Below, piece after piece: positions 12,671-57,882 of a stretch of 64,000 nt of DNA. Location of the stretch: positions 62,001 to 126,000 of the forward strand of contig JARGXX010000100.1 of assembly GCA_030374765.1 (NCBI GenBank), written 5' to 3'. Position numbers and translations under genes: made by a program. Source of the stretch: Agarophyton chilense. Taxonomy: Eukaryota > Rhodophyta > Florideophyceae > Gracilariales > Gracilariaceae. The notes below the pieces were generated by a model that did no database searches, was not told where the DNA came from, and saw only the letters and a list, made by a program, of their open reading frames with translations. How positions within the stretch are numbered: position 1 is the first letter of the stretch; every line of letters starts with the position of its first letter.

Positions 12671-12869
12671 TTTTCTTGCCTGAGGGCACTGTAACAAACC
12701 GACTAGCGGTAGTCTTGAGATAACAAAATAAAACACTTTGATCTTCTGCAACTTCTCTGCTTCTTCTTCTTTCTGCGAGGCCTCTCCTCTTCTTGCTTCA
12801 CTGCTAACTTGTTGTGGACCTCCACTTCATTCTTCCCCCTCCTAGAGTTACTTCATACTTCTGTAAGGA

Positions 12870-15439: not shown

Positions 15440-16900
15440 TTCGAGTCACGATAACGCGTCAGCGTGTACGTTTGAAGTTCCCTTCTTGTAGTTGATTTTG
15501 AAATCAAATTCTGAAAGGCGCAGATGCCATTGCATTAAGCGTCCCGACGAGTCGGCAATCGACATGAGCCATCTGAGGCATGAGTGATCGATATTGACCG
15601 TAAATTGAACACCCTGTAAGTATGGTCTGAGGGTCGTTAGAGCCCAAACTATAGCAAGGCCTTCCTTTTCTGACACAGAGTAGTTCTTTTCTGCCTGGTG
15701 CAATATTCTCGACCATTATCCAATAGGATGTCGTATGCGGTCTTCGTGCGTTTGAAAAAGGGCACACCCAATCTGATAATCGCTAACGTCCGTATCGACG
15801 GAGTAAGAGAGATCCGTTTTCGGAAGAGATAACACAGGAGCTGTGGTCAGCACGTGTTTTAGCTTTGCCATAGCTTCCGCTTCGGCTTCTCCGAATTCTT
15901 TCAATTGAACGGGGTTTCTCTTCTTCAATAAAGCGTTAAGGGGCGCAGCGATATGCGAGTAGCGCGGCACAAATCGTCTGTAGTCATTACGAAGTCCGAG
16001 AAAGGATCTCAATTGCGTCTGCGTTAACGGAGGTTTGAACTCACGAATGGCAGCGATCTGCACTTCTTTCATTTCCAGTTTCCCTGGCTTTATGCAGTGT
16101 CCCATGTATTTCACTTGGTCCGTAAAACATTCAAACTTCTTGATTTTCAAGGTGATTTCAGCTTGCTGTAACTTCTCGATGATTCCCTCAACATTCCCGA
16201 TATGGTCTTCGATATTCTTACTGAAAATGATGATGTCATCCAAGTGAACAAGACGTGTTTTCCTCTTATAATGTGATAATATTATATCGATAGCACACTG
16301 AAAAGTCGCAGGGGCGTTGGTCAAACCAAATGGCATTCTCTTAAAGCGATACAGCCCTGCGTGACACGCAAATGTAGTCTTATCTTGATCTTCTGGGGCG
16401 ACTGGTTTCTGCCAGTATCCTCAGTTTGCGTCAAGCGTGGTAAAAACATTGATTTCTCCAGAACTATCGATGCATTCGTTCATACGCGGTAATGGGTATG
16501 TATCCCTCACAGTTACGGCATTCAGTTTTCTGTAGTCAACGCACAAGAGTAAAGAACTATCTCCTTTGAGAACAAGGACCACTGAGGACGCCCAATCTGA
16601 TTGAGCTGGCTCAATGATTCCCTTCTCCAACATGGAATTCACGAGTTCTTGTTCGATCTGACGAGTTCGCGGGCCTGCCCGATACGGTAATTGATCGATG
16701 GGTCGTGCACCCGGTACAACGTCAATATGATGTTCCGTAGCCGCGATCTGGCCAATGTGTCCACTCAAAATATGTGAAAACTTCAGGAACATTCTGCACA
16801 ATCTTTCTTTATACTCCTCAAGAACGTGTTTCATCTTCACGCCCTTGAGGGCCTCTTCCATCTCTTTTTCAGAGACATTCTCTTCCTTCATATTCTTCAT
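15440..16900 (-). pseudogene. Gypsy-B reverse transcriptase and RNase H region
   Basis: RT: H-x-I-D-V-V-P-G-A, C-V-D-Y-R-K-L-N near 16530, M-P-F-G-L-T-N-A-P-A-T-F-Q near 16300-16336 and V-H-L-D-D-I-I-I-F-S near 16225-16250 (polymerase site L-D-D). RNase H follows: V-D-T-D-V-S-D near 15800, S-V-S-E-K-E-G-L-A near 15670 and H-x-C-L-R-W-L near 15570. Typical gypsy pol, broken. Confidence 0.9.
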
Positions 16901-18059: not shown

Positions 18060-20094
18060 CTTAGGCCTTCCAATATGATTGTCTCGGTACACGAGTTCGT
18101 TCTGGCTCCGGGAGAGCTTCAGAGTTCAAAACAACTCGATGTACCTGTGTAAAAGGCAAAGTGCACTCAGATGACAAATGATGTTTTCCATAGCACCCAT
18201 AATATATCAGGCCGTCCCTGTTCAATTTCAGCTGTGGCTGTTCTCTACCACGGGTATCCACCCAACCAGGCTTCAGAGAAGTAAATTCACCCGTTGGCAG
18301 GACCGTTAGACTCCTTTTGTAAGGGGAACGGCGTGGCTCCATATCCAATATATAATACTCCACATGGAAATCAGTTGACAGCGAATCCGTAGTAGGCATT
18401 GACCCCCCTGGTTCATCCAGGTAGTTAACTGCGTCTTCTCCAGAACAGCTGACATCATGAGGCATAAACGTCGAAACGCATGATTCCTCTGGCGACTTCA
18501 GATGCAAAATCTTGCCTCGCTTGATAGGGGGGTTTTATATCCCTGTTAGCAACGGGATATGTCCCTAGACGACGTGTTCCACCTCCGCAACGAGCGCGAA
18601 CTACTTCACCTTCAGCCTGTGCATACTGCACTACTTCCAGAAATCTGATTCTCGAGTGCTTCTCCTGATGAAGAGCTACCAATGACTTGATAATCGGATC
18701 GAGTCCATCGACAAAAAGTGTCATCTTCTTGTCCGTAGAATGGACATTTCCTCGGCGTGGGGCTGCATTACTCAGTCTTGAACTGTACTCAACCTGCCTT
18801 TCTCTAGGCTTCTGGGTAATATCTCTGAGATTCAGGATAGCTTCACGAATCGCATTTGACGTTGCGTAACTACGCAGCAAGTACTGCACGGTTTCGGCCC
18901 AACTGGTCACTCCACCTTCATCGACGGTAAGTGAACCACTCCCGGCACGGTAGTGCTCCAATGCAAATCCAACCAATAAGTGTGGAGATGTCACGAATGC
19001 TAGAGCGTTACTCATCCCCAGCGTGTCGGCTTCGAATTTAAAGCGATTGAGAAATTCAAATATGAGAATGGGATCCTTCCCAGAAAAAGTAAGACCATCG
19101 AGGCAAATCTTCAAACGCTTAATGTGATCTCTCACTTTGGCTGTCTCGCGACCTATTCGCTTCCCCTTTCGGGCCTTGAGCCGATATACACGATAATTTG
19201 TAATCTTCCTGTAAAGCGGGTTCGTACACGAAAGCGGTTTCAGATTCTTGTAGGGCGGTCCCTTCTTGCCGGACAGTAGTGAGCTACCAATTCTTTTCTT
19301 TCTCGAACGGCAAGTGTCCTCCTCGCTCGAGGTATCATCAGAAAATGAACTTGCAGTCTCGTAGTCTTCCGTATCCGAACGCTTGGAATCCGTATAATCG
19401 GAATTATCTCCGTCTCCATCGATGTCATGTCTACTTGCGAGTTTTCTAGATTAAGAGCGCTTTGAAGATAACTTCTGTACCTTCGACTTCTTTGAATCTT
19501 TCTTGTGGGAACGCGCATCAGCAACGATGAGTCCCACCTCTTGTACTTCCGGGTGCGGAATTTGCAACGGTGCATTCACCACAGTCTCCAATTGCTCTAA
19601 GCAAGTGCTTACACGTGAGAGGACCTCCTCAACAGTAACCGGTAGAGCTGGTACGGCCCATGTGGCAGTTCCTTGCTCTTCTAGCAATTGATTTAGATCT
19701 GCTCGGATTGTCCAAACAGTCTCGGCCATCCGATTCGTTTCTAGATTTCGATTCTCCAGAGCCGTGAGCTCTCTTCTTAACGTCTATAATGACAAGTTTA
19801 ACAAGTTAAATTGACCTTCCATCTCCTTTAGACGGACCTTCTGCATCGCACATTCAGCACGGAGTTGCTGTAATTCAGCTCGCAAGGCTGCACCTTCCCA
19901 GATATCACGTTTAGATGAAATAGTAGCCTCGAGATCAATCGTCGTTGGAACCTCCGAAGGTGCAACTGCGCTTCCTGTCGATTTCGACTTCTTCTTCGCC
20001 TGACGATATAGGCGGTTCGGGCCTCTGTAGTGGTGACTAAGCGGGGTGCCGCGGACTCACTTCTATCCGAATCCGGTTGACTTCTTGTCTGCAT
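18060..20094 (-). pseudogene. Gypsy-B gag region
   Basis: Begins on the minus strand near 20094. A Ser/Lys-rich middle near 19240-19580 is followed by the capsid-like part with F-S-G-K-D-P-I-L-I-F-E-F-L near 19070, Y-L-L-R-S-Y-A-T-S-N-A-I-R-E-A-I-L and F-V-D-G-L-D-P, then a degenerate zinc knuckle near 18190. Gypsy-C gag has the same blocks in the same order. Broken. Confidence 0.85.
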
Positions 20095-20479: not shown

Positions 20480-21238
20480 TGCGATATTCCACTGAAAACT
20501 GTACACGTCTCGGTGCAGTGGGTATCCACAGAAATAACCGCGAAGAGCGGGTGTCGCCTTGCAAGCGACGGTTCTTAGATACAAGAGAGTGTGCGGAAAG
20601 CAGCCAGATGTGCCTCAACAATGGGGATAATATGTGTATTCACGAGGCGGATGTCCAGATGCGGCGGTACGTAAAACACACGAGATCAGCTAGACAACCC
20701 TTGTGACAACACAAATAACCAGGTAATAGTAGAGAAAACAACGCACACACACACACAGAAAGCTGTAGAATAAAGGTGGTAAACGCGCAACAGTAGAGGG
20801 TATCCTCGTAACAAGAGCTATAGCTCAAAAAGGTTAAGAACTGAAACTATAGGTGCGCCTTTGTGGTGAACCACTTTAGGATTTGTAGAACTCACCAAGA
20901 TGGTGCTTAGGTTGGTTGGTTGGTTGTTGGTTGGCCTTCGCCGTCCTCACCTGGGCCTTGCGCTCTTTGAAGTGCCAAGAGGCAAAGCAAGTACTGTACA
21001 TTAAGGCATGCACGTGGCGTGCCCCTACATAATTATCTAAATAATACCAAATAAAAAATTTGGTCATGGAACCTTACAGTGTACACTAAATACAGTAGTT
21101 CCTAATTAAATTTCTCCTGTTCCAATCTTTTCATGACGTAATTCTTCTCATAACTTCTCGTAATCGAGTATAGCCCAAGCAATAGCTTATGAATGCCGTA
21201 TCGCGACTTCGTAGTATTTCGATCGGTCGAACTCAGGT
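20480..21238 (-). repeat. 5' LTR of Gypsy-B, larger part (split by Copia-2)
   Basis: Aligns with the left LTR from its inner end to CGGTCGAACTCAGGT, where Copia-2 begins; the remaining 19 bases are at 26337-26355. The outer end reads GCTCTACA, like the LTR of Gypsy-C. The palindrome GAGCTATAGCTC occurs in both copies. Confidence 0.85.
21234..21238. repeat. Target site duplication of Copia-2, left (CAGGT)
   Basis: CAGGT occurs before the left LTR and again at 26332-26336 after the right LTR. The other Gypsy-B LTR carries it once, uninterrupted, near 10827-10831, so the pre-insertion site is visible in the same window. Confidence 0.95.
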
Positions 21239-23860: not shown

Positions 23861-24207
23861 ATCCCAAACCGGTCCTCTCTATCAACCAGCATGCACGTTC
23901 AGTGACTGTACCAGGACGCAAAAATCGATAAATCACTGTTGCATTTGAAGATACTCGCCCAGCGCTGCCTCAAGAAAGCTTCGCCCAACTAGTACAAGAT
24001 GGTATTGACTCGATATCCGAGATTTCAAGTGACCATTGTACTGCTTTAAAGGCACAGGCTGAAATGAACACAGATGTCAACTTTGAATGCTCTGTACCAA
24101 GTGACACTGCTGTTGACTTATCTCAAGGTTCGTCTGATATCAACACACCTGTTGATGCACCTGTTGATGATGACTTCTCTACTGAATCCTCAAACGTTGA
24201 ATCCTGT

Positions 24208-24366
24208 GTAGGAGACAATATCTCCGTTCTCTGGCCCCTTGAAGAACAATTCTTCCCTGGCACTGTCCACTCGGCAACAGAAGATGGTCGTCTAAACATA
24301 CACTATGATGATGGGGATGTAGAACAACTTGAAATGGAGAAGGAGGTATGGAAGTTTACTGAAACA
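24208..24366 (+). other. Copia-2 Tudor-like module
   Basis: Reads L-W-P-L-E-E-Q-F-F-P-G-T-V, then N-I-H-Y-D-D-G-D-V-E-Q-L and a closing E-V-W-K-F. The layout of aromatic, Gly and acidic positions matches Tudor-like domains (PDS5-type) and the module in Copia-1, with the same spacing although the sequence has diverged. It follows an acidic Ser/Thr-rich linker after integrase. Binding of methylated histones or other chromatin marks is an inference. Confidence 0.65.
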
Positions 24367-24499
24367 ATCCCAGCCAGTTCTGGTACAGTGGCACAACTGG
24401 AAGTCACAAGCACTGAGAACTCAGTCCTAGAATCGATTCTTGACCATTTTTGGAACAAACCATTTATAAGGCACCACGCACAAGGGTTTGACCAATACC

Positions 24500-26040
24500 C
24501 TTTAGTCAACGCCTACAATGCAGAGGAAGATACATTTTTCAAGACTGTTCGCCCGGTCACACACGAAGAAGTCCCTCCGAACTCCATTGTTATCAGCAGT
24601 CACACCTTATACAAAGTGAAGACTAATGATGACGGGTCTCTCAAGCTTAAAGCACGTATTGAACCACATGGGAACGAGGACGATTTGAAGAACGTCTTGA
24701 GCAAAGACTGTACCACATGCCCACCCACAGGACTTCGGATCCTCGAATCAATTGCATCTCTATTCGGCTGGATAATCCACAGGGCTGATGTGAAGGCTGC
24801 GTTTCTGCAGACAGGGGAGGCTCAAAGAAACGTCTATGTTCGCCCACCCAAAGAAAGCCAAATGAAATCGACTCATCTTTGGCTACTTCTGACAGCTGCC
24901 TACGGCCTTATCAATGCAAATGCCAAGTGGCAGAACCAGTCCGATAATGTTATGTTTGACATTGGACTCAAGAAGTCGACCCATGTTCCTCAGCTCTTCT
25001 TCCAGAAAGAAAACGGAAGGCTGGTATTAATTGTTGCTAAAATAGTTGACGACCTGAAAGCTGCAGGCGATGGCGACCGTGTGAAACGCTTTATGGAGGA
25101 GTCTGGCAGACGATTTCAGTTTGGTGATGTGATGCAAGGACCACCCAAACTCCGATTCTTTGGCATCAACACTGTTCAAAATGGCGACTTTACCATTGAG
25201 ACAGATGCGGACGATAAGATGAACTCTGTATCTGAGTATCCGTTCTCTAGGCAACGCCGCAAGCATTTTTATGAGCCACTCAATCAGCTTGAAAAGTCTG
25301 TGTTCGCCTCCACAAATAGTTCACTTGGATGGATCGGAACTGCGGCTTCACCATTTTGCTCATTCTATGCCAGCTACCTGCAGCAAAAAGCCCCTAATCT
25401 AAAAGTGTGTCACCTTGTTGAACAAGTGAATATAGTTCGCAAGCTGAAGAAGCTCGGAACAACTATTGCTTACCCTAGACCAACAGACAAAAATCAGTAT
25501 GAACTCAGCGTTCTAGTGTTTTTAGATGCGTCACGGACAGATGAATGTGGCCAACTTGGAGTTCTAACTGGGTTCCTTATCGGTGAGATGAAGAACAACT
25601 CGATTTATCATGGCATATCGTGGTTGTCTCACAAGTCAAAGCGCCCGGTCAAAAGCATACCTGCTGCAGAGAGTTTTCCTGCCTCGGAAGGGATTGAAGA
25701 AGGAAAGACAATCTCTAAGGCATACTCGGAGCTTCTTGGCATGGAAGTCAAGTTGAGACTTGCTGTGGACTCTAAGGACTTGTTTACTTCACTATCGACA
25801 CAGAAGAATTCTATCGACAAATCGATTCGTGGTGTTGTTAGCTGCGTCCTTTTTGAATTCCAGACTGGTGCTGTTAATAAGATATCGTGGGTTCCCGGTC
25901 ATTCCAACCTGGCAGATTCGCTTACCAAGAAAGACAGCCCTCTGACAGATGCTCTTCAACTGAGTCTGTTCACTGGCAGACTTTGCTTCGATTTCCAGGA
26001 CATTGCTGAGACGAAGCATTCGAAGAAAAACTTTGGCTGA
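24500..26040 (+). pseudogene. Copia-2 reverse transcriptase and RNase H region
   Basis: RT: K-A-R-I-E-P-H-G-N, C-P-P-T-G-L-R, D-V-K-A-A-F-L-Q-T-G-E near 24787, T-A-A-Y-G-L-I-N near 24895 and I-V-D-D at the polymerase site near 25043. RNase H: V-F-L-D-A-S near 25517, A-V-D-S-K-D near 25765 and V-P-G-H-S-N-L-A-D-S-L-T near 25890. This large 3' part of pol looks open. Confidence 0.9.
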
Positions 26041-41139: not shown

Positions 41140-41144
41140 TCAGG

Positions 41145-41880
41145 AATGTGTTTTATTGACGATTGGTGGCGAAACATTTTTCCGTTCGAGAACATGTCCA
41201 CTTCTCGATCCGAATTGTATGGCTCGCTTGCTACGCGAGGTTGCTTTATCCGAAAGTCCAATTATTCTAGCCGCTCTTCGAAGTAAGTGCTTATAACCGA
41301 CACCATCTGGTGCAGAGAGATCACATACATGTTCCGTCAACGGCAATTTTGTGACAAAGTCCACCAAGTCCTCGTCAAGGAATGGATGGCGTACTTCTCT
41401 TCCACGGTCTCTTATAAGTCTATCGTTTCGTTCAAGATTTCGAAACCATAACCTACAAAAATCGGCATCTTTTTTACGAAGAATACCGTCAGTTCCTTCG
41501 CTTTGGAAAATTGTACGATGCCGACATTTATAACCACCCATCAGATCGTCAGCACCAAGGCCGCTGAATAATACTATTGCTGTAGATTGCGTTACCTCAC
41601 GCGGTCTTTCGAAGCCATGAACAATTTTGTAATCTATTCCTTGGGAAGCAAGCCAGATAGCGGTACCGATAGAGGCATCCATAAGCTGATCACAGGGATG
41701 TAAAAGGTGCCGCACACGACTAGCTAGAGTTCCATCAGCCTTTTTAGCAATTACATCGAAGCATAACATCTCGACTGATCTTCTCTTTGAGCATAAGCTA
41801 TAAGCTGAATCTGTTGCGCAAGCATCCGTGGCGCTCCAGGTGGTCGCTTATCCTCCACACCGCATCCACTGAAGCAGGAC
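41145..41880 (-). pseudogene. ASNSD1: Asparagine synthetase domain-containing protein 1, C-terminal part
   Basis: ASNSD1 resembles glutamine-dependent asparagine synthetase but its function is unsettled. On the minus strand, near 41700-41630, M-D-A-S-I-G-T-A-I-W-L-A-S-Q-G is followed by I-V-L-F-S-G-L-G-A-D-D-L-M-G-G-Y near 41540-41580, then R-N-L-E-R-N-D-R-L-I-R-D-R-G-R-E-V-R-H-P-F-L-D-E near 41370-41440 and K-R-A-I-Q-F-G-S-R near 41215. S-G-x-G-A-D-E/D-x-x-G-G-Y and D-R-x-x-x-x-x-G-R/K-E-x-R-x-P-F-L-D-E are ASNSD1 hallmarks. Sequence like the preceding segment (G-V-E-D-K-R-P-P-G-A-P-R) lies in another frame up to about 41880, so a frame change occurs near 41770. The N-terminal amidotransferase part is missing. 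Confidence 0.8.
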
Positions 41881-45624: not shown

Positions 45625-45629
45625 GCCTC
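45625..45629. repeat. Target site duplication of Gypsy-D, left (GCCTC)
   Basis: GCCTC precedes the left LTR and recurs at 57883-57887 after the right LTR, over 12 kb away. This proves the two halves around Gypsy-C are one element. Confidence 0.94.
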
Positions 45630-46001
45630 TGTTAGCCACCCACAAGCACACCTGGGATGCGTAGGTGCATCCCAAAGCAGGGTGCTGCGGAACTGGGATA
45701 AAAGAGCGCAACTGCAGCCCAGAGTGGACCGTAGTCTGGATTGAGATGCGGGCGTCTGGACTGCGTAGGACTTCGAAGTAGACAGCTGCTGGACGATAGC
45801 GACACCTACGCAGCGCACGCATCATAGAAAACCTAGAAGCGCAACCCACGAGCTGGTCTTGGAGCACCACGAACTACTATATAATAAAGAATACCAGACT
45901 CTGTAAAAGAGTCTGGGAGCATTCGACACAGCGCGGAACTTCTCTTGGTGCCCAACCTTTTTGGTTCACGTGCGACTAGCGCGAATCGTGACACGTCAAC
46001 A
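45630..46001 (+). repeat. 5' LTR of Gypsy-D
   Basis: 372 bases, TGTTAGCC...CGTCAACA, aligned end to end with 57511-57882. Contains a TATA region near 45877-45888 and an AATAAAG signal. Confidence 0.94.
45877..45916 (+). promoter_or_regulatory. TATA region and hairpin in the Gypsy-D 5' LTR
   Basis: TATATAATAAAG is followed by CCAGACTCT-GTAAA-AGAGTCTGG (45894-45916), a perfect nine-pair stem with a 5-base loop. The 3' LTR keeps the stem unchanged and differs only in the loop (GTCAA). It is near the expected transcription start. Confidence 0.6.
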
Positions 46002-46051
46002 AAGCGCTTTGCCTCTAAGGAGTACACTGTTTGCTTTTTGCGCTTAACGTG
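46002..46051 (+). other. Leader of Gypsy-D with an unusual primer region
   Basis: After CAACA the sequence is AAGCGCTTTG, and Gypsy-A has AAGCGCATTG in the same place. It does not start with TGG, so priming by a normal tRNA 3' end is not apparent. Gag begins at the ATG at 46052, or at an upstream non-ATG codon. Confidence 0.5.
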
Positions 46052-46980
46052 ATGTCGAAGTACGGAGTTGTGTCAACCATTTCGGCGCCTAGGCTGGAGA
46101 GTCCTACACAGCCGAACATGATCAAATTCGAATTAGAGTATGCTGCGTATACGGAATATATCGCTGAATTTAACCAGACTCGCGCTGCTGCAGATCACAT
46201 TCCACCAGCCACGATTCGACAGTGCGTCAAGCCGGAAATGCTACACAGTCTGTGCATCTTGGGAGAAATAGATGGCGCGAGCACAGTCGATGACGCGACT
46301 GACGAAGTGGTGAAGAACTGGTTTGAAAATGCTCTCAAGGAAGCTCCGAAGGACCTGGTGCAACGCGTACAGACATCATTGTATGCAGTGAAGTACCGAA
46401 GATGCCCCAGGGACCCAGGTGGGGCTGTTACAGAATTTGTCGTGAACATAGTCATGCATTTGGACAGAAACAATGCATCGGATGTCGTGAAAGATCAAGA
46501 AATCTGGAACACGATCGTCCCTAAGCTAATCAATCGCCTGGAACCCGCTGAGCTACGTATTCGTCTGCTGAACGAGAAGTCATACTGGACAACCGCACAA
46601 AAGGCAAGCGTATCCCATTTTATGAAACGCGCCAGCGCTCTTGCCGTCGAAGTGCATAACGGCGAAGCTGCACGGGCGCAGAAAAAGCGAAGACACGAGC
46701 GCAACGGAGAAAACGTTTCGAAGAAGAGTGAACCCGAAGATATGGAGCGCAGTCGCAAACGTTCGAAACGAGATTCATCGAACTCAGGACCACAGAAAAC
46801 CACCGTAGACGGTACTATGTGGACGAAGCTTTGCCTGAACAAGAAATGCGACAAGAAGAACCGAATCCGAGACTGTAGTATTACCTCCGCCAAAGAAGGG
46901 AAGCAGCTCTTGAACGATATCTTTGCAGAGAAGCAGGGGAAGAGAAGCATCAAAGTCGCCCGTTTATCAAGCCATTCGAG
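46052..46980 (+). pseudogene. Gypsy-D gag part
   Basis: Begins M-S-K-Y-G-V-V-S-T-I-S-A-P-R-L-E, then C-I-L-G-E-I-D-G-A and a Lys/Arg-rich stretch near 46680-46780. A Cys pair L-C-L-N-K-K-C-D-K-K near 46830 may be a minimal nucleocapsid motif. This part looks open and continues into the protease. Confidence 0.8.
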
Positions 46981-48560
46981 CAGCAATGGAAAGTACAACA
47001 TTTTACTCGACGAACGAGTCGCAGCAGTCGCAATTGGAGACTCTGGCGCCGACTGTATTGCTATATCGAGGGACTTGATGAAGAAAGTCAATGCCGGAAG
47101 CAACTTGGAAGTAATCGATCTCCCTGAAACCATCGAACTCTTGACTGCTGTCGAGAGCATTGAAGAAGCCCCAATCGTGTTCACATCAAAGCAGAAGACG
47201 GCTATGTCGCTAGTTCTAACCCTGCCCAGGACCAAGATACCTATACTTCTGCATGGAGTAGAGTTCTTAATTACGGATCAGAGTATGAAAGAGGTGATTA
47301 TTGGATGCCCCCTGCTCAATGAAATAGGATTCAACCTTGACGACCACCTCGAGAAGGTGTGCTCGGCGGTCAACGGTATGCGTATCACCCACGTCGGTGT
47401 ACCTACTGATAAGGGTAACTACCGTGGTGTATCTTACAGAGACGCAGAGGACGACCCAATTGAACCCCCGGAACACCTCACGACTGGATTCAGAATGGAC
47501 GACTCGATTGAAATCGACAAAGCTCTCGCTTCCCTGGAGGAGGAAGCCCGGAAAAACGGGATGATTAATGAGGGACATCGCGAGCTGAAGAGAATACTAT
47601 GTGAGTATCGATCAATCCTTCGCATAAAGCTCGGTCCCAATCCACCTGCCAAAGTATCCCCATTGGAGATCGAACTGCGCCCTGGAGCCAAATCAATCCG
47701 CTGCCCTCAGAGGCGGTACGCGCAGAATCAGCGAGTTTTCATCAGTCACACGATCAAGCAGCTGGAAAAAATCGGCGCAGTGTATACGAACCCAGCAGCC
47801 AAGTGGGCCAGTCCCGCCCTGGCTGTACCAAAGCCTGGGACTGACAAACTGCGCTTCACAGTCGACCTCCGCTTCGTAAACTCCAAGACCATATCCATGC
47901 AGTCGGCAATGCCACATCTCGATTCGAAGTTACAGGAGTGCGGAGGCTGGAAAATTTTCGCCAACATCGATTTCTGCCACGGATATTGGCAGTTCGCACT
48001 ATCTCCTGACTCGAAGTAACTCATGTCTATCCAGACATCGCTGGGCATATATTCGCCGTGACGTATGCCGCAGGGAGGTATAGACTCGGGAAACCATTTC
48101 CAAGCTTGCACGCAGACTGCCTTTGCGGAAGAAGTGCCCAACCTCATTCAATGGATAGACGACTTCCTGCTACACGCAAAAGACGAGGGCGAACTTTCTG
48201 TCGCCATCGAGAAGTTTTTAGCAGTATGCCAGCGATTTGGTTTCCGAATAAACCCAAAGAACAGTCATTTTTTTCAAAGAAGAGTGAAGTTATGTGGACG
48301 TATCATCTCAGAAGACGAAGTACACTATGACCCACGTTCATTCAAGGTTCTCATCGACATGAATGCTCCGAACACCGTAAGTGAGCTACAGCAACTGCTC
48401 TGCGCTACTAATTGGATGCGTACGTCTATCCCAGACTACGCCAAGAGAGTAGAGTCATTGCACGATCTCATGGAAGAAATGTACAAGGAAGCGGGGTCAC
48501 GACAGAAGAGTGCAGTAAGGATATTCAGCGTAGTTGAGAAATGGAACCCCACGCACTAGG
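46981..48560 (+). pseudogene. Gypsy-D protease and reverse transcriptase
   Basis: Protease: V-A-I-G-D-S-G-A-D-C-I-A-I near 47025 and I-I-G-C-P-L-L-N-E-I-G near 47297. RT: Y-A-Q-N-Q-R near 47719, K-W-A-S-P-A-L-A-V-P-K near 47800, F-T-V-D-L-R-F-V-N near 47857 and L-I-Q-W-I-D-D-F-L-L near 48145 (polymerase site I-D-D). Later L-C-A-T-N-W-M-R near 48400 matches the thumb. About one or two breaks. Confidence 0.88.
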
Positions 48561-48727
48561 TCGCGCTTGACGATATCAAACGCCTTCTCATCTCTGCAAC
48601 AAAACTGTCCTATCCAAAAGAAGGACACACTCTCTGCCTGTTCACCGACGCTTCTGAAACCCACTGGGCCGCAATTCTCACCCAGATCCCGGAAAAGCAT
48701 CGAAAACTCGACCTCAGGGACCAGAAC
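48561..48727 (+). pseudogene. Gypsy-D RNase H, first part
   Basis: L-F-T-D-A-S-E-T-H-W-A near 48640 is the first catalytic block of RNase H. Gypsy-C begins a few codons later, and the rest of the domain is at 55582-55900. Confidence 0.85.
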
Positions 48728-48732
48728 CATGG
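48728..48732. repeat. Target site duplication of Gypsy-C, left (CATGG)
   Basis: CATGG precedes the left LTR and recurs at 55577-55581 after the right LTR. Confidence 0.94.
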
Positions 48733-49645
48733 TGTGGAGATAAACCCGGCGACGGGAAGTGCTCTCAAGGTGTTCGAAGCCTTGCTCCCTGGGGGAGGCA
48801 GACTCAGAGACAGAGCCCTCCGTTCCACCCGTAGTGTGGGGTGTAACTCCCACGGGGTATTCCGGCAGTACCGACGGAGGTGAGGGGTAGAAACCGTTGG
48901 ATTGGGAATGGGTATGAGTATCCCAAAGAATGGGGAAAATCCGGCGAAGAGGAAAAACGGGGCGAGGGTCGGGCACTAACAGGCACCGGACCCGAGAACC
49001 AGAAAAGGGGCGAAACAACAAAAGAAACCCAATACAGGGGCGAAAACCTGTCCTCGAAAGGAAACACAAAAAGCACGCAACAAGTAAGCAGAACCCCCAC
49101 GGGGTATCGTGCACGCAGGTCGTCTGAGCGGTCCCAAGGGGGTGGTTGCACGGAACCCAAACGGGGGCACTCTCCAAGTGGAGTCGTGTCCCTACGCAGG
49201 CGTTGCTAACCAGAGCCCGTTCCGGGTTGTAAGGCCAAAACGATGGCGACGAAGAACCTCTAAAGGTATCGAAGACCAACCTTGGTTTTCATTTACTCTG
49301 AGCTTCGGACTGTCAGATCTCATCTCCCTAAGTAGGGCCCACTAACTAAACTCTACAGTAGTGCCCACCTGCTCAGGGCCATACACGTGGAGATCCAACT
49401 GTCAGGGCCCAAAAGTCCAACGTTCTACAAATATCCGAAAATCGGTGCCAAAATTAAGAAACGTGTATCACGGGGCCAATCCAACCATGGGCCATCCGAA
49501 TTTTCCCTTATAGGCGAAATATAACCAGAAAACAGTGCCACCTCAGCACACCTTAGAGGGGATCATAATCATAACCCTCCGAGGGTTCAATCCTCATTCT
49601 ATGAGTTGCATCTTCAAGTATCCCCTGACTTGGCGTCGCTCTACA
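48733..49645 (-). repeat. 3' LTR of Gypsy-C (left copy)
   Basis: 913 bases, TGTGGAG...GCTCTACA on the plus strand, almost identical to 54664-55576. CCTATAAGG on the minus strand near 49508-49517 may be the TATA box. Several frames are open on both strands within it. Confidence 0.95.
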
Positions 49646-49660
49646 TCTCCCCCTCCTTAA
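49646..49660 (-). other. Polypurine tract of Gypsy-C
   Basis: The minus strand reads TTAAGGAGGGGGAGA directly before the left LTR. Confidence 0.8.
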
Positions 49661-49727
49661 GACGAGGAAGAACATTCCGAGCCGCGGGTGTCTAGCTTTC
49701 CGATTACTATACATACTTCTCTCCCAA

Positions 49728-50624
49728 TGGGGTCCTTCACCACTTCTGAGGATCGCCACAAAACCGGCACATCGGTACAACTTTCTTCTACTCCTCCGAC
49801 TTTCGGCGATAAGCAACTTCTCGCAACAGCGGTCTCAACCAGCCCTCTCAAGGGAATGAACCCATACGTCATCAACCCACTCTCGGGGCCATCGGCCTCC
49901 GCGCCGGCGGACAACGAAGCTCCCCAGCAGGGTGGAGATTTCTCCGATGCTACGGACCATCATGCGTCAGATCGACCTTGTCCCAGCGTTGGGTTTGGCC
50001 AGCAACGTGCAGGACCTCTATCCAATCTTGGACGTGATCGACAACACCCAATGGGATCGAGTTCCAGTGGCAAATCAGCCCGCAGGGGAAGGATCCGCGC
50101 GAGACAAGTCTCCTGGCCGGTACGATCCGGGCTCCGGTAACTGGGTCTATTACAATCCCTTCGAAGGGGTTCGCATCAGCGCGGCGCAAGCACGGGCGCT
50201 GATTGACTCGCCTCGACCGATGCCGGTGGGACACCCGACGGGGTTCATTTATACCGACGATTACGAGTACGAGCCTCCAGTAGACCTGGACGATCCAGCG
50301 TTGGATAACGAAGTGCCAGCTCCTAGTGGAGTACTCCCTGTGGAGCCATCTGCACCCTTCCAACCAGTGGGAACGACCTCAGCTGCGGCGGCGAATGCAT
50401 CCGGTGGCGGTCCATCTGCTCCCCCCGGGTGGGGTGTGAACACCCTTGCGCAGGCGCCGGTTGCCACTCCGCAAGCGGATAGTGTGCGACAAGGCCTCGT
50501 GAACACAGGCATTCCGATTCCCCCGGGTATGACGGATGTGAGCCAGATGTTGGCTTTCGCCTCGGCGTACCATCAGGGTCAGAATCCCAACGGTGGGGCG
50601 GGTCCCTCCTCGGGCTTTCCGTAG
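49728..50624 (+). pseudogene. Antisense accessory gene of Gypsy-C
   Basis: Plus-strand coding between 3' LTR and chromodomain, opposite to gag. The main part (49932-50624, about 230 residues) has V-I-D-N-T-Q-W-D-R-V, D-K-S-P-G-R-Y-D-P-G-S-G-N-W-V-Y-Y, an acidic Tyr-rich part (Y-T-D-D-Y-E-Y-E-P-P-V-D-L-D-D) and a Pro/Ala/Gly-rich end with D-V-S-Q-M-L-A-F-A. Gypsy-B's antisense gene has the matching V-I-D and S-P-G-R blocks and a matching Q-Q-M-L end. No known domain. Shorter than in Gypsy-B. Whether translated is unknown; at least one break near the start. Confidence 0.6.
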
Positions 50625-50689
50625 TTCCGCCTTCGGGCAATTGTAGAGTCCATAGCTTGGCGACAATAGTAAACTTCTGATATTTGCAT

Positions 50690-50830
50690 AACTACTTTTC
50701 TTCTTCCTTCCTAAGATCTTCTTCATCTTCTTCATTCCTTCTTAGGATCTTCTTCATCTTCTGCCCTTCCTAGGGTCCAATCTTCTTCTTAATCTTCTTC
50801 TCCACTTCGTGGGTCTTCTTTTCCTTTTTC
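50690..50830. repeat. Pyrimidine-rich low-complexity tract
   Basis: TTCTTC and ATCTTCTTC units repeat irregularly for about 140 bases between the ends of two converging genes (antisense gene and chromodomain). Gypsy-B has a shorter TCTTCTTCTTC tract in the same place near 12760. It may separate or end the two transcripts, which is an inference. Confidence 0.7.
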
Positions 50831-51005
50831 ATTATAAACTGTCCCGATAACCGGTGTTGTGTTCCCCGGTTAACGGCACTAGGCCGAGGGCCAGTAGACA
50901 TTCCCTCTCAATACGTGTTCTTCGGGATACTCTCCTCAATTCCTCTTCAGAGGTCCAACATCTTCCTCACTTCGAGGTCCCATCCACACCAGTTCCCGTG
51001 GTGGC

Positions 51006-51296
51006 TTACCCGACTTGGGCACGATCCATATTTGGAGGCAAGGTTACCCGAGCGCGTCGGTGATAGGATAAAACCTTAGACCTCGGAAGGTGCTCAATGG
51101 GTTCCACTGTATCCTCATCAGGCGAGAATCCGTACCATCGGACTTGGTAGCGAACTTCTCCCTCGGGGGTGTAGATGTGACGCACGATGCAATCGATAAC
51201 GAATTCCTGCGGGTACACTTTTCTCTGTTCGGGCTTCTCTTCCATCTTGGAACGCTTTAGTTCCCTTGAGGGTGTCAACGTAGGGTCTAGACACAC
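51006..51296 (-). CDS. Gypsy-C chromodomain
   Basis: The minus strand reads Y-P-Q-E-F-V-I-D-C-I-V-R-H near 51210, V-R-Y-Q-V-R-W-Y-G-F-S-P-D-E-D-T-V-E-P-I near 51110-51160 and L-P-R-S-K-V-L-S-Y-H-R-R. All main chromodomain features are present: hydrophobic strand, aromatic W-Y-G-[FY] and D-T-x-E-P. In chromoviruses this sits at the end of integrase and guides insertion; here there is no integrase in front of it, so it would be made alone or fused in an unseen way. It looks whole. Confidence 0.8.
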   Translation of the reverse strand: MCLDPTLTPSRELKRSKMEEKPEQRKVYPQEFVIDCIVRHIYTPEGEVRYQVRWYGFSPDEDTVEPIEHLPRSKVLSYHRRARVTLPPNMDRAQVG

Positions 51297-51580
51297 CCCG
51301 GTGGGTTCTTTTCCGTGTTGCGAGCGGGTCTCAGCACTTCGTCCAAACGGCGCCGAGTGGCCTGTGGGCTACGTTGTAACTTCCGTCTACGGAGTCAAAA
51401 CGGCCCAGTTTTGGGTTCTTCTTAAAGCTAAGATCTTCCCAATAACAACGGTTTTCTTAGATTCCGTGACGGTTGAGTAACCGCGACGCGGTAGCGTCTC
51501 CAATCTCAGGGGGGTAAGACTTCAACGTCAACCCGAGCTATGGGGACGAAGGTTGCTCTTGTGCAACGTGCCGTGCGACG
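51297..51580. other. Spacer of Gypsy-C
   Basis: About 280 bases between chromodomain and the tandem repeat with no recognised coding sequence. Confidence 0.4.
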
Positions 51581-51730
51581 GAGGCGGTTTGCGTGACGGT
51601 TGGTCGTCAGAGCCTTCTGATTGGCTCGGTGAGGCGGTTTGCGCGACGGTTGGTCGTCAGAGCCTTCTGATTGGCTCGGTGAGGCGGTTTGCGCGACAGT
51701 TGGTCGTCAGAGCCTTTTGATTGGCTCGGT
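51581..51730. repeat. 50-base tandem repeat, three copies
   Basis: GAGGCGGTTTGCG starts units at 51581, 51631 and 51681. The units are 50 bases long and differ at only about three positions. The flanking sequence 51751-51790 is a copy of part of the antisense gene (near 50450-50485). Confidence 0.93.
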
Positions 51731-52513
51731 GCCATTCGACGTGTGCCACATAAATGCGCGGGCGCCGGTTGCCACTCCGCAAGCGGATGTGAGGTGGCGC
51801 TTTCGACACGCGCTAGCACTCTCCTGAGCTGTCCCCGACGGGTCTCACTCATTTCTTTCCCATTCCTGAGGGTTCCAGTGTCTCCATAGGAGTTCCTATT
51901 CCCATTCCATAACGGAGAGCCAAATTTGGTCAACCTCGTCGTCGAGATCTTCCCCGTGCAGGTCCGCTGACACAGCTCGTTCCCGAGAAAGCGGGGTTTG
52001 AGTGTGCGACACCTCAGTGTCTCGTCCGCGGCGGCGGGTGATCGTCGGCTCTGTAGGCGTTCCGGGTGCGGAGTTCTCCACACGACTCTCCCTAGGAGGG
52101 TTTTCGTCATCTTTTCTGACGTCGTGCTCGGCTGGGTCGGCGGTGATGTCGCTACCCATATGCTGGGGTTGTGACTTCTCTGTCGCCGGCTCGGTCGGGC
52201 TCGCCGTCTCACTGTGAGAACTAGATTCCCTGTTAGGGCGACTGGCTGACGCCGAAACATCGTCCTGCGAAGGAACTAAGTCCTCCTCCCCCTCCTTAGG
52301 CGGAGAGCCAGGAGGCTTGATTACCTCCGGTGGGGGAGTAACTCTGTAAGAGTTCGTTGACTGGGCCCTTGAGGGAGCGGGCCCAGGTTCGGGAGTATCC
52401 GAAGTTTAGTTTTTCGAAGCGGACCCCACCGAATTCGGTGCAGCTGCCTCGAAGGGGACCGGTTGTTCCCCGTTCGCAGGTACAAGTTCTGTATCCCTGT
52501 CAGCAAGGTGAGC
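51731..52513. other. Spacer of Gypsy-C downstream of gag
   Basis: Frames on the minus strand near 51896-52260 are Thr/Pro/Glu-rich and match nothing known. In a full element this is where protease, RT and integrase would lie; none of their motifs is visible. Confidence 0.55.
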
Positions 52514-54436
52514 TCAGAGTATCCTTTGTTCCTCATAGGACCTACTCGGGACTCGAGCTTTCTCCTCAGGGGTTAGAGCCTCGTACTGAGCGATAATTCG
52601 TGAACCCTCCCGCAGGGGAAATGTGCAGTCTGGTGCTTTGTGACCACGGAGGTAACACAAATAGCAAATCAGCTCTGCCGGGTTCGGTTGTGGACGTAAA
52701 TCCACGCGACGTGGTGCTGTATCCCTCAATCCGGGGCGAGAGAACCGAGCAGCGGTATTCGCAAAAGGTAGCGATGCGGCTGGCACCCTCCGTCCGTGGG
52801 TATAGAGCGCAGGGTCTTCATCCGTAGTCGGAGCGGATGTCGACGGCAACTCAGACGTACCCATAGATTCGGGGTTACTTCCCATGAAGTGAATGTTATC
52901 ATTGACCCCCACAGGGGTAGGGCCTCCTGCGAGTGACAAAGACGAGTTACCTCCATCGGCGAGGAGTGCACTTGTCGGCCGACTCTTTCGGTTCTGCCGG
53001 GCACGGAGAGTATCCCCCTCAGCCTGGGCGTACTGAACCAGTTCCAAGCAGGTCAGCTTGCGCTTCTCTTCCCGATGTCGGGCAACCAATGCCCTTATCG
53101 AGGGGTCCAAACCATCCACAAACATGGAGCATCTCTCGTAGGCGGGGAATACATTCCCGCATCGGTGAAACGCTTTATTCAAGCGAGTTGAATACACCGT
53201 TTCGGTTTCCATCGGCTTCTGCCGCGTATCCCTTAATGCAAGGATTGCTTCCTGAATCGCATTTCCAGTAGCGTATGACCTCAAGAGGTACTGCACCGCT
53301 TCGGGCCAGCACGTGACTCCCCCTTCCGAGGCTCGGGATGATCCACGGACGGAGTTGAACTGGTCTTCAGCCATCCCCTTTAAGAAATAGGGTAATGCCA
53401 GATACGCTTGCGCTTCACTCATACCGAGGATGTCAGCCTCCTGGACGAACCTCGCAAGGAAATCGAGCATCAGAATTGGGTCTGTTCCTGTGAACTCCCT
53501 CTTCTGTAGGGTGATGCTCAGCCTTTTGATGTAGTCCTTGACCTTACCCGTTCCGCGGGATGTTCGATCTCCCGAAGGGTTATCCAACCGGTAATAGCGG
53601 TACGATAGCAGCTTCCGATAGAGAGGATTCGTCGGCTTCAGCTCCCTTAATCCAAGGTGTTTCCTACCCTTCTTCCGGGTACGGATTGCCCCTTGAGAGG
53701 TGTAAGTAGCCTTTGACCGAGTCGCCCGGGATGACCGGCGTCCATCTTCACTATCCGAAGATTCGGAGGACGAACTCGATGACGAGCGATTGGGATCGGA
53801 ATCCGATAAATCCTCTTGCAGGTGAACCCTCTTCTTAGACTTGCGGTGGTCCCGTTTAGCGGAGCGGTGTTCTTCGTCTTCCGAAACGTCGGGTTTATCC
53901 TTCGAGGCTTCTGTGTCTCCGTCCATACGGATAATGGCCTCGAGGGTGTCCAGCCGAGCTTGGAAGCGATCCGCTTGCACGCGGTGTTCCTCCACGAGGC
54001 TCAGGTACTCCTGGACAAAGACCCGAGGGGTACCAAAGCTTTCCAAAAGGGATTTCACATCCCTCCTCAGGGTACGAAGGTCATCGGCGACTCCCCGCAC
54101 CTGGGCGTCCTCCACCTTGAGGCGGAGGGTAGTAATTTCCTGAAGGAGCTCGATGTGAGCCGCGTTGGCGATATCAATTCCAGTCTCCAGGCGCTGTAAT
54201 TCAGGGTCGGCCCGACTTTGGGGTGCTGCTGAGGGGGTCTCCACCACTAGAGCTGGGCCCACAGCCACGACCTCTCGAGGACCTGAAACCACTGAGGGTG
54301 CTCTCCGAGTGTCCGGATCGGTACCGGAATCGTTCCGACCTTCGGGAATTAAGCTCCTCGACCTAGGCGGGGCCGGGGGCACTGAATCCGCTTGACGGTT
54401 CGATCCAGTCCTGGAACCACGGGTAGGCGGCGACAT
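52514..54436 (-). CDS. Gypsy-C Gag, 640 residues, looks whole
   Basis: A single open reading frame with ATG start at 54436. N-terminal Arg/Ser/Pro-rich part; a middle with coiled-coil tendency (residues 90-170: repeated L/E/R pattern); a Ser-rich tract (S-S-S-S-S-S-E-S-S-D-S near residue 225); the capsid-like part with F-T-G-T-D-P-I-L-M-L-D-F-L, S-Y-A-T-G-N-A-I-Q-E-A-I-L and F-V-D-G-L-D-P (residues about 310-450), and a C-terminal zinc knuckle C-Y-L-C-Y-L-R-G-H-K-A-P-D-C (CX2CX4HX4C). Gypsy-B Gag shares all blocks. Gag would assemble particles that package element RNA in the cytoplasm. It is the longest intact frame of any element here. Confidence 0.88.
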   Translation of the reverse strand: MSPPTRGSRTGSNRQADSVPPAPPRSRSLIPEGRNDSGTDPDTRRAPSVVSGPREVVAVGPALVVETPSAAPQSRADPELQRLETGIDIANAAHIELLQEITTLRLKVEDAQVRGVADDLRTLRRDVKSLLESFGTPRVFVQEYLSLVEEHRVQADRFQARLDTLEAIIRMDGDTEASKDKPDVSEDEEHRSAKRDHRKSKKRVHLQEDLSDSDPNRSSSSSSSESSDSEDGRRSSRATRSKATYTSQGAIRTRKKGRKHLGLRELKPTNPLYRKLLSYRYYRLDNPSGDRTSRGTGKVKDYIKRLSITLQKREFTGTDPILMLDFLARFVQEADILGMSEAQAYLALPYFLKGMAEDQFNSVRGSSRASEGGVTCWPEAVQYLLRSYATGNAIQEAILALRDTRQKPMETETVYSTRLNKAFHRCGNVFPAYERCSMFVDGLDPSIRALVARHREEKRKLTCLELVQYAQAEGDTLRARQNRKSRPTSALLADGGNSSLSLAGGPTPVGVNDNIHFMGSNPESMGTSELPSTSAPTTDEDPALYTHGRRVPAASLPFANTAARFSRPGLRDTAPRRVDLRPQPNPAELICYLCYLRGHKAPDCTFPLREGSRIIAQYEALTPEEKARVPSRSYEEQRIL

Positions 54437-54663
54437 GCTGCAGACACGACACCGACGATTCGGGGTAACGATGAAATTCGATCACGAGATTCCCGGAGAA
54501 CGGATGACGTAACACAAAACAAAAATAAAAACCAATTCCACCCTTTCCAAAGGGGACCACTACAACAAATCTTCACGCCGGTGCTTCCTCTTCCAAGAGA
54601 TATTACAACACGTGGATGACCAACCCAAAAGTCCGAGAACGGATTCAAAGTCGGGAGACCACT
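54437..54663 (-). other. Leader of Gypsy-C with primer binding site
   Basis: Directly inside the right LTR the minus strand reads AGTGGTCTCCCGACTTTGAA (54644-54663). TGGTCTCCC is shared with Gypsy-B and would pair with a tRNA ending GGGAGACCA. Confidence 0.7.
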
Positions 54664-55576
54664 TGTGGAGCAAAACCCGGCGACGGGAAGTGTTCTCAAG
54701 GTGTTCGAAGCCTTGCTCTCTGGGGGAGGCAGACTCAGAGACAGAGCCCTCCGTTCCACCCGTAGTGTGGGGTGTAACTCCCACGGGGGATTCCGGCAGT
54801 ACCGACGGAGGTGAGGGGTAGAAACTGTTGGATCGGGAATGGGTATGGGTATCCCAAAGAATGGGGAAAATCCGGCGAAGAGGAAAAACGGGGCGAGGGT
54901 CGGGCACTAACAGGCACCGGACCCGAGAACCAGAAAAGGGGCGAAACAACAAAAGAAACCCAATACAGGGGCGAAAACCTGTCCTCGAAAGGAAACACAA
55001 AAAGCACGCAACAAGTAAGCAGAACCCCCACGGGGTATCGTGCACGCAGGTCGTCTGAGCGGTCCCAAGGGGGTGGTTGCACGGAACCCAAACGGGGGCA
55101 CTTTCCAAGTGGAGTCGTGTCCCTACGCAGGCGTTGCTAACCAGAGCCCGTTCCGGGTTGTAAGGCCAAGACGATGGCGACGAAGAACCTCTAAAGGTAT
55201 CGAAGACCAACCTTGGTTACCATTTACTTTGAGCTTCGGACTGTCAGATCTCGCCTCCCTAAGTAGGGCCCACTAACTAAACTCTACAGTAGTGCACACC
55301 TGCTCAGGGCCAAACACGTGGAGATCCAACTGTCAGGGCCCAAAAATCCAACGTTCTACAAATATCCGAAAATCGGTGCCAAAATTAAGCCACGTGTATC
55401 ACGGGGCCAATGCAACCATGGGCCATCCGAATTTTCCCTTATAGGCGAAATATAACCAGAAAACAGTGCCACCTCAGCACACCTTAGAGGGGATCATAAT
55501 CATAACCCTCGGAGGGTTCAATCCTCATTCTATGAGTTGCATCTTCAAGTATCCCCTGACTGGGCGTTGCTCTACA
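54664..55576 (-). repeat. 5' LTR of Gypsy-C (right copy)
   Basis: 913 bases, the same length as the left copy, with about 3% difference. Followed by CATGG (55577-55581). Confidence 0.95.
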
Positions 55577-55581
55577 CATGG

Positions 55582-56080
55582 GCCCCTCGCATTTCTTTCT
55601 AGAGCGTTTCGCGGCGCTGCACAGCACTGGAGCACCCCGGAAAAAGAAGGATTCGCCATCGTAGAGGATATTAGTAAGCTGGATTATCTCGTATCCAGTC
55701 GGACGGTCTCGATTTTCACGGACCACGCAAACCTCGTCAACATGTACGACCCGTACGGAAGCAACCCCAGCACACCACGCCACAAGGCTAGCAAGCTGAT
55801 GAGATGGGCAATGAAGCTCAACGGTTTCAGGTACATCATACAGCACCTACCGGGGGAACGGAATGTTTGGGCTGATATGATGACACGTTGGGCCGTAAAA
55901 AGTCCTGGCAAAGTCAAAGTAGCCACTTCGAGGGCACGAAAAACTGTTCTTATGGCGCCAATAAGTCCCGAACTGAAGCCGGAACTCGACTGGCCCAATC
56001 TCAAAGACCTGGAGAACTCACAATGTAGCAGTCCAGAGAAGCCGCCCAGCAGTTTCAAGCAGAATCAAGGCATTTGGCGA
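55582..56080 (+). pseudogene. Gypsy-D RNase H, second part, and link to integrase
   Basis: Continues after Gypsy-C with L-A-F-L-S-R-A-F near 55587, W-S-T-P-E-K-E-G-F-A-I-V near 55631, I-F-T-D-H-A-N-L near 55713 and L-M-R-W near 55797, the expected RNase H order, then I-Q-H-L-P-G-E-R-N-V-W-A-D near 55840. Confidence 0.88.
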
Positions 56081-57160
56081 AACAGTTCAGGGAGTACATG
56101 GGTACCGAAGTCAGACACACTGTGCAAGCTAAAAGCTTTGATCGCGGCACACACCGGATCAACAGGACACCCAGCAAGGGAAGTGACAAAGGCAAACATC
56201 GAAAGACATTTCTGGTGGGACTGTATGGACAAAGATGTGAAGGACTGTGGAATCCTGTATCTACTGCCTCGCTAGTCACCCAGGATTTATCGTGCCAAGG
56301 CCTCTTAGGTCTGCGATTCATGCTACGAAACCCAACGAAGTAATCTATTTCGACTACTGCTATATTGGAAAAGGAGAGAAGCATCACATCTACGTTCTGG
56401 TGATCAAAGACGACTTCTCTGACTACCTATGGCTCGTTCCGACAACCGAAGCAAGGGCTGAAGTTACCTCTGAACTGCTAACAAAATGGTTCGCCGCCTT
56501 CGGAACTTCGAGGATATGGGTGTCCGATCAAGCCAGCCATTTTAAGAACACAGTGACGCGTAGTCTCAAGGATCATTTGCACACGCAGCATCATTTCAAA
56601 CTGGCCTACGCACCATGGAGCAACGGTACAGTCGAGGTAGTGTGCAAAGAGCTTGCTAGAGCGGCAAGAGCATTATTATCAGAGTTTTAGATTCCATTCG
56701 CCACATGGCCCAATGTGATGTCACTGGTGCAGTCAGCACTGAATAACTCTCCATTGAAGCGATTGAAGAATCGATTTCCACTCGAAGCATTAACCGGGCT
56801 GAAGCAGTACGGCCCATTTGCCGGACTCACAGAACGCAAAGGAGAGTTGGAAACTGTGTCCATCACCGAGGCACAGATTAGGAAATTGCGAGAATTCGAC
56901 CGGTGCATAGAAGCAACGAAACGCATGTACCGAGACGTCGCCACAGCTTCTAGCAAGAATCGCAAAGCAGCAGTAGAATCACACAACCGGAAAACGGGAG
57001 TACGCAAGGTGAACTTTTCTGATGGTGATTTTGTGTTGAAAGGATTGGTAAAGAAGAAAATGAAAAAGAAACTCTCGCTACACTGGACAGGTCCGTATCG
57101 AGTGGCAAGCTCCAATGGCGAATACATCTTCGAAGTTGAACATTTACTTTCATGAAAGAA
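56081..57160 (+). pseudogene. Gypsy-D integrase
   Basis: Zinc part: L-I-A-A-H-T-G-S-T-G-H near 56140, I-E-R-H-F-W-W near 56200. Core: I-Y-F-D-Y-C-Y-I-G-K near 56343, V-S-D-Q-A-S-H-F near 56520, W-S-N-G-T-V-E near 56617. The C-terminal part has W-T-G-P-Y-R-V near 57084 (G-P-Y/F motif). About two breaks. Confidence 0.88.
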
Positions 57161-57249
57161 GGAACTAGTGCACGGCCGTCGGTTGAAGTTTTTCCGAAAC
57201 AAGAATTTTCAAATCACCGAAGGACTTCAAAATTACCTCTCTTATCAAG

Positions 57250-57430
57250 ACAACGAGCTACTGACGGTCGAAGAGTTCCAGGATATCAGAAAAGAAAACG
57301 GAAAACTTGACATCTTGGTAAAATGGAAAGGCTTTGAGGACAACGAAACCGACTGGGTCTCATTGGAAAGCCTACAGCACGACGTACCAGACTTGGTGAA
57401 GGAATATCTGGAACACGTCAGGAAAGACGT
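57250..57430 (+). pseudogene. Gypsy-D chromodomain
   Basis: V-E-E-F-Q-D-I-R, I-L-V-K-W-K-G-F-E-D-N-E-T-D-W-V-S and L-V-K-E-Y-L-E-H-V fit a chromodomain (W-K-G-F ... T-x-W). It is the last part of pol, in the same direction, unlike the layout in Gypsy-C where an antisense gene follows. Confidence 0.85.
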
Positions 57431-57500
57431 TACAACACGACAAAAGAGACTGGTCAAATTCTTATAAGCAACCTTCCATATTCCTTTCGAAGAATTGGTC

Positions 57501-57510
57501 ATAGGGGGAC
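57501..57510 (+). other. Polypurine tract of Gypsy-D
   Basis: ATAGGGGGAC directly precedes the right LTR. Confidence 0.75.
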
Positions 57511-57882
57511 TGTTGACCAACCACTAGCACAACTCGGATGCGTAGGTGCATCCTAAAGCATAGTGCTGCGGAACTAGGATAAAATAGCGCAACTGCAGCC
57601 CAGAATGGACTGTAGTCTGGATTGAGATGCGGGCGATTGGAATGCGTAGGACTTCGAAGTAGACAGCTTCTGGACGATAGCGACACCTACGCAGCGCACG
57701 CATCAACGAGAACCTAGAAGCGCAACCCACGAGCTGGTCCTGGAGCACCACGCACTACTATATAATAAAGAATACCAGACTCTGTCAAAGAGTCTGGGGG
57801 CATTCGACACGGCGCGGAACTTCTCTTGGTGCCCAACCTTTTTGCTTCACGTGCGACGAGTGCGAATCGCGACACGTCAACA
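57511..57882 (+). repeat. 3' LTR of Gypsy-D
   Basis: 372 bases, the same length as the left LTR, with about 8% differences. Holds the same TATA region (57757-57769) and hairpin (57775-57797). Followed by GCCTC. Confidence 0.94.

Follow-up and report, generated by a model that had tools for sequence, protein, structure and literature searches.

Does the strand opposite gag-pol in red-algal Ty3/gypsy retrotransposons encode a protein of its own? The question is raised by two chromodomain elements, Gypsy-C and Gypsy-B, in a 64,000-nucleotide stretch of the Agarophyton chilense genome (hereafter the window). The original prediction, made from the letters of the window, proposed that both carry plus-strand coding sequence, running against their own genes, in the region that separates the chromodomain from the 3' LTR. 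The related proteins and their position were found as proposed, but neither window copy is intact.

Gypsy-C (48733-55576, minus strand, TG...CA ends read by eye) is nested within pol of an outer chromovirus on the plus strand (45629-57882; LTRs 45629-46001 and 57510-57882, 373 bp, 92% identity). As Gypsy-C is a minus-strand element, its 913-bp 3' LTR (48733-49645) stands at the left end; it is 97.4% identical to the 5' LTR (54664-55576). A 5-bp target-site duplication, CATGG (48728-48732 and 55577-55581), and a polypurine tract on the minus strand (49646-49658) were recognized by eye. The minus-strand chromodomain ORF that ends pol (51006-51368; Pfam Chromo, 2.9e-07) converges with the antisense gene, and a gag-like ORF lies open at 52514-54481 on the same strand; the Pfam scan found no domain in the latter, which was assigned to gag by eye for its position and its resemblance to gag of Gypsy-B. 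The window copy is without reverse transcriptase (RT), and no RT match was obtained in colinear sister copies.

The antisense gene of Gypsy-C begins 82 nt from the edge of the 3' LTR, at an ATG at 49727. It had been described as one coding sequence at 49728-50624, which does not hold, as this interval contains two reading frames around a deletion of about 960 nt relative to full-length copies. The frame from the ATG covers approximately residues 1-72 of the full protein (49727-49943, plus strand) and then runs out of frame to 50140; the tblastn match of P0002, a stop-free family C protein, extends over 49727-49993, with its final part out of frame. The frame changes at the deletion junction, placed approximately at 49938-49950 (plus strand), after which the last 225 codons and the stop are open at 49947-50624 on the plus strand. 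By tblastn, window positions 49938-50621 correspond to residues 391-618 of the full protein in this other frame.

Gypsy-B is also on the minus strand, with a 3' LTR at 10080-10831 and a 5' LTR at 20485-21238 (87.0% identity). Between them are gag (18455-19450; Retrotrans_gag, 3.9e-05), an RT/RNase H ORF (15716-16420; RVT_1, 1.9e-18), an integrase ORF (13943-14731; rve, 2.8e-07, 31.2 bits with a cut-off of 32.6) and a chromodomain region placed by eye at approximately 12950-13100; this copy is locus L009 in the comparisons below. Its antisense gene on the plus strand (11026-12691, by tblastn with P0003, a stop-free relative from family B) is decayed: 11026-11382 lies in one frame with one internal stop and 68% identity to P0003, and 11393-12691 in another with seven internal stops and 75% identity.

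The sequence blocks named in the original prediction are present in Gypsy-C (VIDNTQW, QPAGEG, SPGRYDPGSG and SQML) and, by eye, in Gypsy-B (VIDQIDW, QQARG, SPGRTSPGG and QQML). The likeness survives proper alignment, with 38% identity between the stop-free C and B proteins P0002 and P0003 over 385 aa (E=3e-76). It is also found when stop-free proteins are compared with the window copies, P0003 matching Gypsy-C at 30% identity over residues 341-500 (E=3e-15) and P0002 matching Gypsy-B at 34% over residues 176-529 (E=1e-53).

Several further features of the window were recorded. Where the antisense gene and the chromodomain converge, the DNA separating them (50625-51076 in Gypsy-C, 12671-12990 in Gypsy-B) is rich in pyrimidines on the plus strand (63% and 60%), hence in purines on the sense strand of the elements; it could possibly represent a second polypurine tract or a shared terminator. 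A TATA-like box beside the window Gypsy-B is absent from its relative L022. The chromodomain of the outer chromovirus occupies 57156-57464 and its frame ends about 40 bases before the 3' LTR, which leaves no room there for an antisense gene. A copia-type element at 24064-26037 (RVT_2, 3.5e-18) has a sub-threshold Tudor_3 match before the RT of its polyprotein (1.8e-4, 21.8 bits, cut-off 25.8), and a host-like gene with an asparagine synthase domain lies at 41140-41769 on the minus strand (9.3e-16).

Intact versions of the antisense gene exist elsewhere in the genome. Searching the genome at the protein level with the last 225 codons as query gave 1257 candidates, and many of the best 150 lie in open frames of 640-650 codons. 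In family C, L059 has an uninterrupted ATG-to-stop frame of 618 aa, and L060 and L063 are open as well; with the 618-aa protein as query, 38 of the best 71 of 1894 candidates are stop-free in the matched stretch. The leader of L059 is two bases shorter at the site of window positions 49718-49719. In family B, L022 encodes 558 aa and, itself the query, is the only stop-free whole-protein copy among the 79 matches listed; the other B matches listed, at 74-84% identity, each have at least one stop. The B search also found a third family, D, at about 50% identity, for which at least 85 matches were scored, 20 of these 85 without stops. Such match and stop counts are lower bounds, only the best candidates having been scored, and the matches listed also include more diverged copies. 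Counting C, B and D, the predicted antisense gene is carried by at least three diverged families.

Family D is known from 2.2 kb (L061 and L062) covering the gene and a preceding C-rich stretch. A stretch of this kind, resembling the Gypsy-C polypurine tract, marks the LTR boundary in B as well; in D it comes a short distance ahead of the antisense gene. The antisense orientation is consistent in B and C: the gene lies opposite the chromodomain strand at 49 of 50 loci (29 of 30 in B, including the window copy, and 20 of 20 in C) and on the chromodomain strand at none of the 50, the one exceptional B locus missing one of the two matches.

The shortened gene of the window Gypsy-C belongs to an amplified class. 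A DNA search with this element gave 694 candidates, of which the best 40, window included, are 97-100% identical and span nearly the whole query. We aligned the window with 20 further copies (L039-L058; 21 rows), and the antisense gene is shortened in all 20 of these fetched loci. Gaps among them are confined to L057 (two leader bases) and L052 (one base inside the antisense gene and the final alignment column), so that none of the copies joins the two frames; the two-frame state was therefore amplified as such. The N-terminal frame has an early stop in 5 of the 21 rows. As a separate observation, the leader dinucleotide before the antisense ATG (window 49718-49719) varies or is absent in L045, L048, L049, L052, L056 and L057. 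In ten of the 20 loci gag is joined to the 3' end and RT is gone, nine have RT on the sense strand, and L049 has neither RT nor the gag junction. Since the window copy is without RT yet flanked by a 5-bp duplication, non-autonomous Gypsy-C copies have evidently spread. And because copies missing most of the antisense gene, such as this one, still spread, the gene appears to be dispensable in cis.

The original prediction knew of no described family that matches the protein, and this holds for Pfam, NCBIfam, PHROGs, the PDB and open-licence papers. There was no significant Pfam match for P0002 and P0003 (E<=1) or for the public relatives P0004-P0012 (E<=10), one match having an E of 0.24; NCBIfam gave nothing significant (best E 0.28), and PHROGs gave no match. 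Sequence searches of the PDB were empty, as were fold searches with AlphaFold2 models, which were weak (mean pLDDT 53.7 and 62.1 from 7 and 10 sequences, respectively). These models suggest a disordered N-terminus, a conserved and mainly helical core of about 370 aa, an acidic linker (pI 4.05 in P0002) and a short C-terminal helical pair, which may resemble HeH or LEM-like motifs. Ish1 (PF10281) scored below its cut-off in two of nine C-terminal pieces, at a best E of 0.069 (13.9 bits, cut-off 26.6); ABATE and Clp_N score similarly, on one C-terminal piece each, and a separate scan gave one of five pieces at E 0.16. No clear membrane segment was seen in five proteins (best 19-residue hydropathy 0.93-1.63, the highest, in P0003, being borderline). 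The domain, structure and fold searches returned no match backing a nuclear or nucleic-acid role.

How might such a gene be expressed, and what could its product do? With the ATG only 82 nt from the LTR edge in Gypsy-C, transcription would start at a promoter within or next to U3 of the 3' LTR and run inward. The LTR-adjacent position, the convergence with pol and the dispensability in cis together suggest that an antisense promoter in the 3' LTR drives a protein that acts in trans. Grande gene23 and retroviral HBZ serve as the models here: like them, the product would be a nuclear accessory or regulatory protein of the element life cycle. The statement as a whole, combining an accessory gene, 3'-LTR transcription and a trans-acting nuclear role, is plausible to us, and we are somewhat less than half convinced of it.

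One alternative is that the gene is coding and antisense but that its product enters the particle, where it would assist gag or the integration complex in structure, packaging or nuclear import. The conserved, mainly helical core and the lack of a clear membrane segment in the proteins examined are compatible with this possibility, and deleted copies could be complemented in trans by such a product too. Structural proteins often evolve faster, and identity between C and B is 39.5% in the antisense core and 54-58% in RT, so that the antisense protein evolves somewhat faster than RT. However, no capsid, nucleocapsid or zinc-knuckle match was found in Pfam, and antisense expression would, we reason, uncouple the dose of the product from that of gag. 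We regard a particle component as unlikely, though deserving of attention, and retain a trans-acting nuclear accessory protein as the preferred reading.

It could also be asked whether this is a host gene that one element has captured but that still serves mainly the host. Nine public protein records are related to the antisense protein (P0004-P0012), including P0005 from another red alga (Gracilariopsis chorda BWQ96_10156), and two of the records are called simply hypothetical or unnamed protein, a point in favor of this reading. But the A. chilense record, P0010, is 100% identical to the genome place C2:1421739-1423244, which is a D-family copy; the gene occurs in many copies and in three or more diverged families; and no relative with a known host function was found in Pfam, the PDB or protein searches. 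The matches listed include no single-copy syntenic homolog outside transposons. A gene mainly of the host is therefore improbable. Given the absence of the family from Pfam and the uninformative record names, annotations of seaweed genomes may list such transposon genes among those of the host.

The relatives also bear on the age of the accessory gene. P0004 has a best match of 52% among the 75 listed in the A. chilense genome and is thus not a copy from the assembly studied. An outgroup-free tree of 12 rows places C beside P0004 (99/96) and B beside D (100/100), the deeper forks being without resolution. The grouping of C with P0004, and not with B or D of its own genome, suggests that the gene is older than the splits of element lineages and hosts. 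A bolder extension would be an ancient antisense protein superfamily of red-algal chromoviruses that predates the C versus B/D split, is present in at least two gracilarioid genera and supplies trans-acting nuclear regulators of whole families, non-autonomous elements included, with a possible further independent origin beside those in plants and Botrytis; we offer this extension tentatively and consider it doubtful.

Comparisons between families bear on whether a protein has been maintained. Over 362 aligned core codons, identities at codon positions 1, 2 and 3 are 0.55, 0.60 and 0.30 between C and B, 0.57, 0.59 and 0.29 between C and D1, and 0.70, 0.76 and 0.40 between B and D1, with 0.26 expected by chance at the third position. 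By NG86, the B-D1 pair has dN 0.34 and dS 2.9, and dS is beyond computation for the C pairs. As judged from these codons, constraint falls on the predicted antisense protein itself in the comparisons among C, B and D. Positions 1 and 2 are conserved, and the third is close to chance in C-B and C-D1; this pattern speaks against constraint on RNA or on the sense strand as the cause.

Change within families is a different matter. Selection for a shared protein, as originally proposed, is upheld by the codon constraint between families and not by the B family, the D pair or the deleted C class, in which change is near neutral; neutral drift among natural copies, named at the outset as evidence against selection, is close to what was found in these three groups. 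The ratio of nonsynonymous to synonymous change (N/S) is 0.93 among 29 B copies (0.90 in the core, P=0.06), and the D1-D2 pair has dN 0.058 and dS 0.053. In the deleted C class, N/S is 1.05 for the N-terminal remnant and 0.82 for the C-terminal part (P=0.14), whose first and second halves give 0.52 (P=0.0055) and 1.53. The gag of this class, taken as a control from 10 of the 20 loci, drifts likewise (0.89, P=0.17), so post-insertion drift is general, whatever the gene, and does not decide for or against the antisense protein. Three full-length C copies give 0.54 in the frame of the gene (P=0.005), a value that could be lowered by their being drawn from lists ranked by protein similarity, and 0.64 in one opposite-strand frame (P=0.02). 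All N/S P values are uncorrected for six frames and several segments, and two other frames of the deleted C class also reach P about 0.02.

These patterns leave little room for explanations without a protein. Regulation by antisense RNA is raised as a possibility for such regions in excerpts of PMC7264820, and the antisense transcript could matter here for dsRNA or silencing control, the open frame being a by-product; an RNA role would not explain why the first two codon positions are constrained when the third is close to chance, which strongly disfavors this reading, and we consider it very improbable. The frame might instead be open by chance, as the mirror of a gene on the sense strand. 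This view could claim the 271-aa sense ORFs that overlap the antisense gene in L061 and L062 and the mild N/S dip in one opposite-strand frame (0.64, P=0.02), but is refuted because a conserved sense frame needs antisense position 3 to be kept, which is near chance in C-B and C-D, and because proteins of different families align over 385 aa in the antisense frame. What the locus holds is almost certainly a remnant of a genuine protein-coding accessory gene, antisense and placed after pol and before the 3' LTR in red-algal chromodomain Ty3/gypsy elements.

Antisense accessory genes of LTR retrotransposons are without an established function according to PMC7264820. Distant from plants and fungi, the lineage studied here offers a natural comparison that bears on what such genes do, among many stop-free copies, an amplified class missing most of the gene and an outer chromovirus without it. 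Pfam has no entry for the protein family, and its two organism-named records bear no more than the labels hypothetical or unnamed. Like chromoviruses, the elements have RT, integrase and a C-terminal chromodomain on the sense strand (RVT_1 1.9e-18 and rve 2.8e-07 in Gypsy-B; by tblastn, the chromodomain at B loci and 20 of 20 C loci, and RT at 9 of 20 C loci), and unlike the outer chromovirus of the window they carry the antisense gene. The gene differs from an env-like third ORF in its antisense orientation and in having no clear membrane segment. HBZ is a bZIP protein, whereas the algal protein is about 560-620 aa long with no bZIP or other known domain by Pfam. The two genes are similar in placement, HTLV-1 HBZ also being positioned for inward reading from the 3' LTR according to excerpts of PMC10186651; the algal gene is known from sequence alone.

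The closest parallels are the plant aORF-3R genes, which excerpts of PMC7264820 and PMC11963269 describe in maize Grande (gene23), rice RIRE2, Silene Retand (ORF4) and Phaseolus PvRetro13. By these accounts gene23 is nuclear and transcribed from its own promoter, and functions of the plant genes are not established according to the excerpts of PMC7264820. The shared traits, as far as these excerpts go, are a Ty3/gypsy setting, an antisense position between pol and the 3' LTR, many copies and conservation across families. The algal gene differs in its red-algal host, in its chromodomain elements and in having no Transposase_28 (PF04195) or SMC domain by Pfam. Transposase_28 is a trait of Retand and was found in neither P0002 and P0003 (E<=1) nor P0004-P0012 (E<=10). 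Retand is described as a non-chromovirus in the same excerpts (PMC7264820, PMC11963269), while Gypsy-C has a chromodomain (Pfam 2.9e-07; tblastn match at 20 of 20 C loci). Outside plants, the brtn gene of Boty/BcGypsy1 in Botrytis cinerea, cited in excerpts of PMC7264820 and PMC8365987, is likewise an extra antisense gene of an LTR retrotransposon, compared here by description only, and its host is an ascomycete. Among the listings from searches of open-licence PMC full text, none reports an antisense gene in a red-algal retrotransposon. Genes of this kind are known, and the protein family, the host phylum and the chromovirus setting appear to be new.
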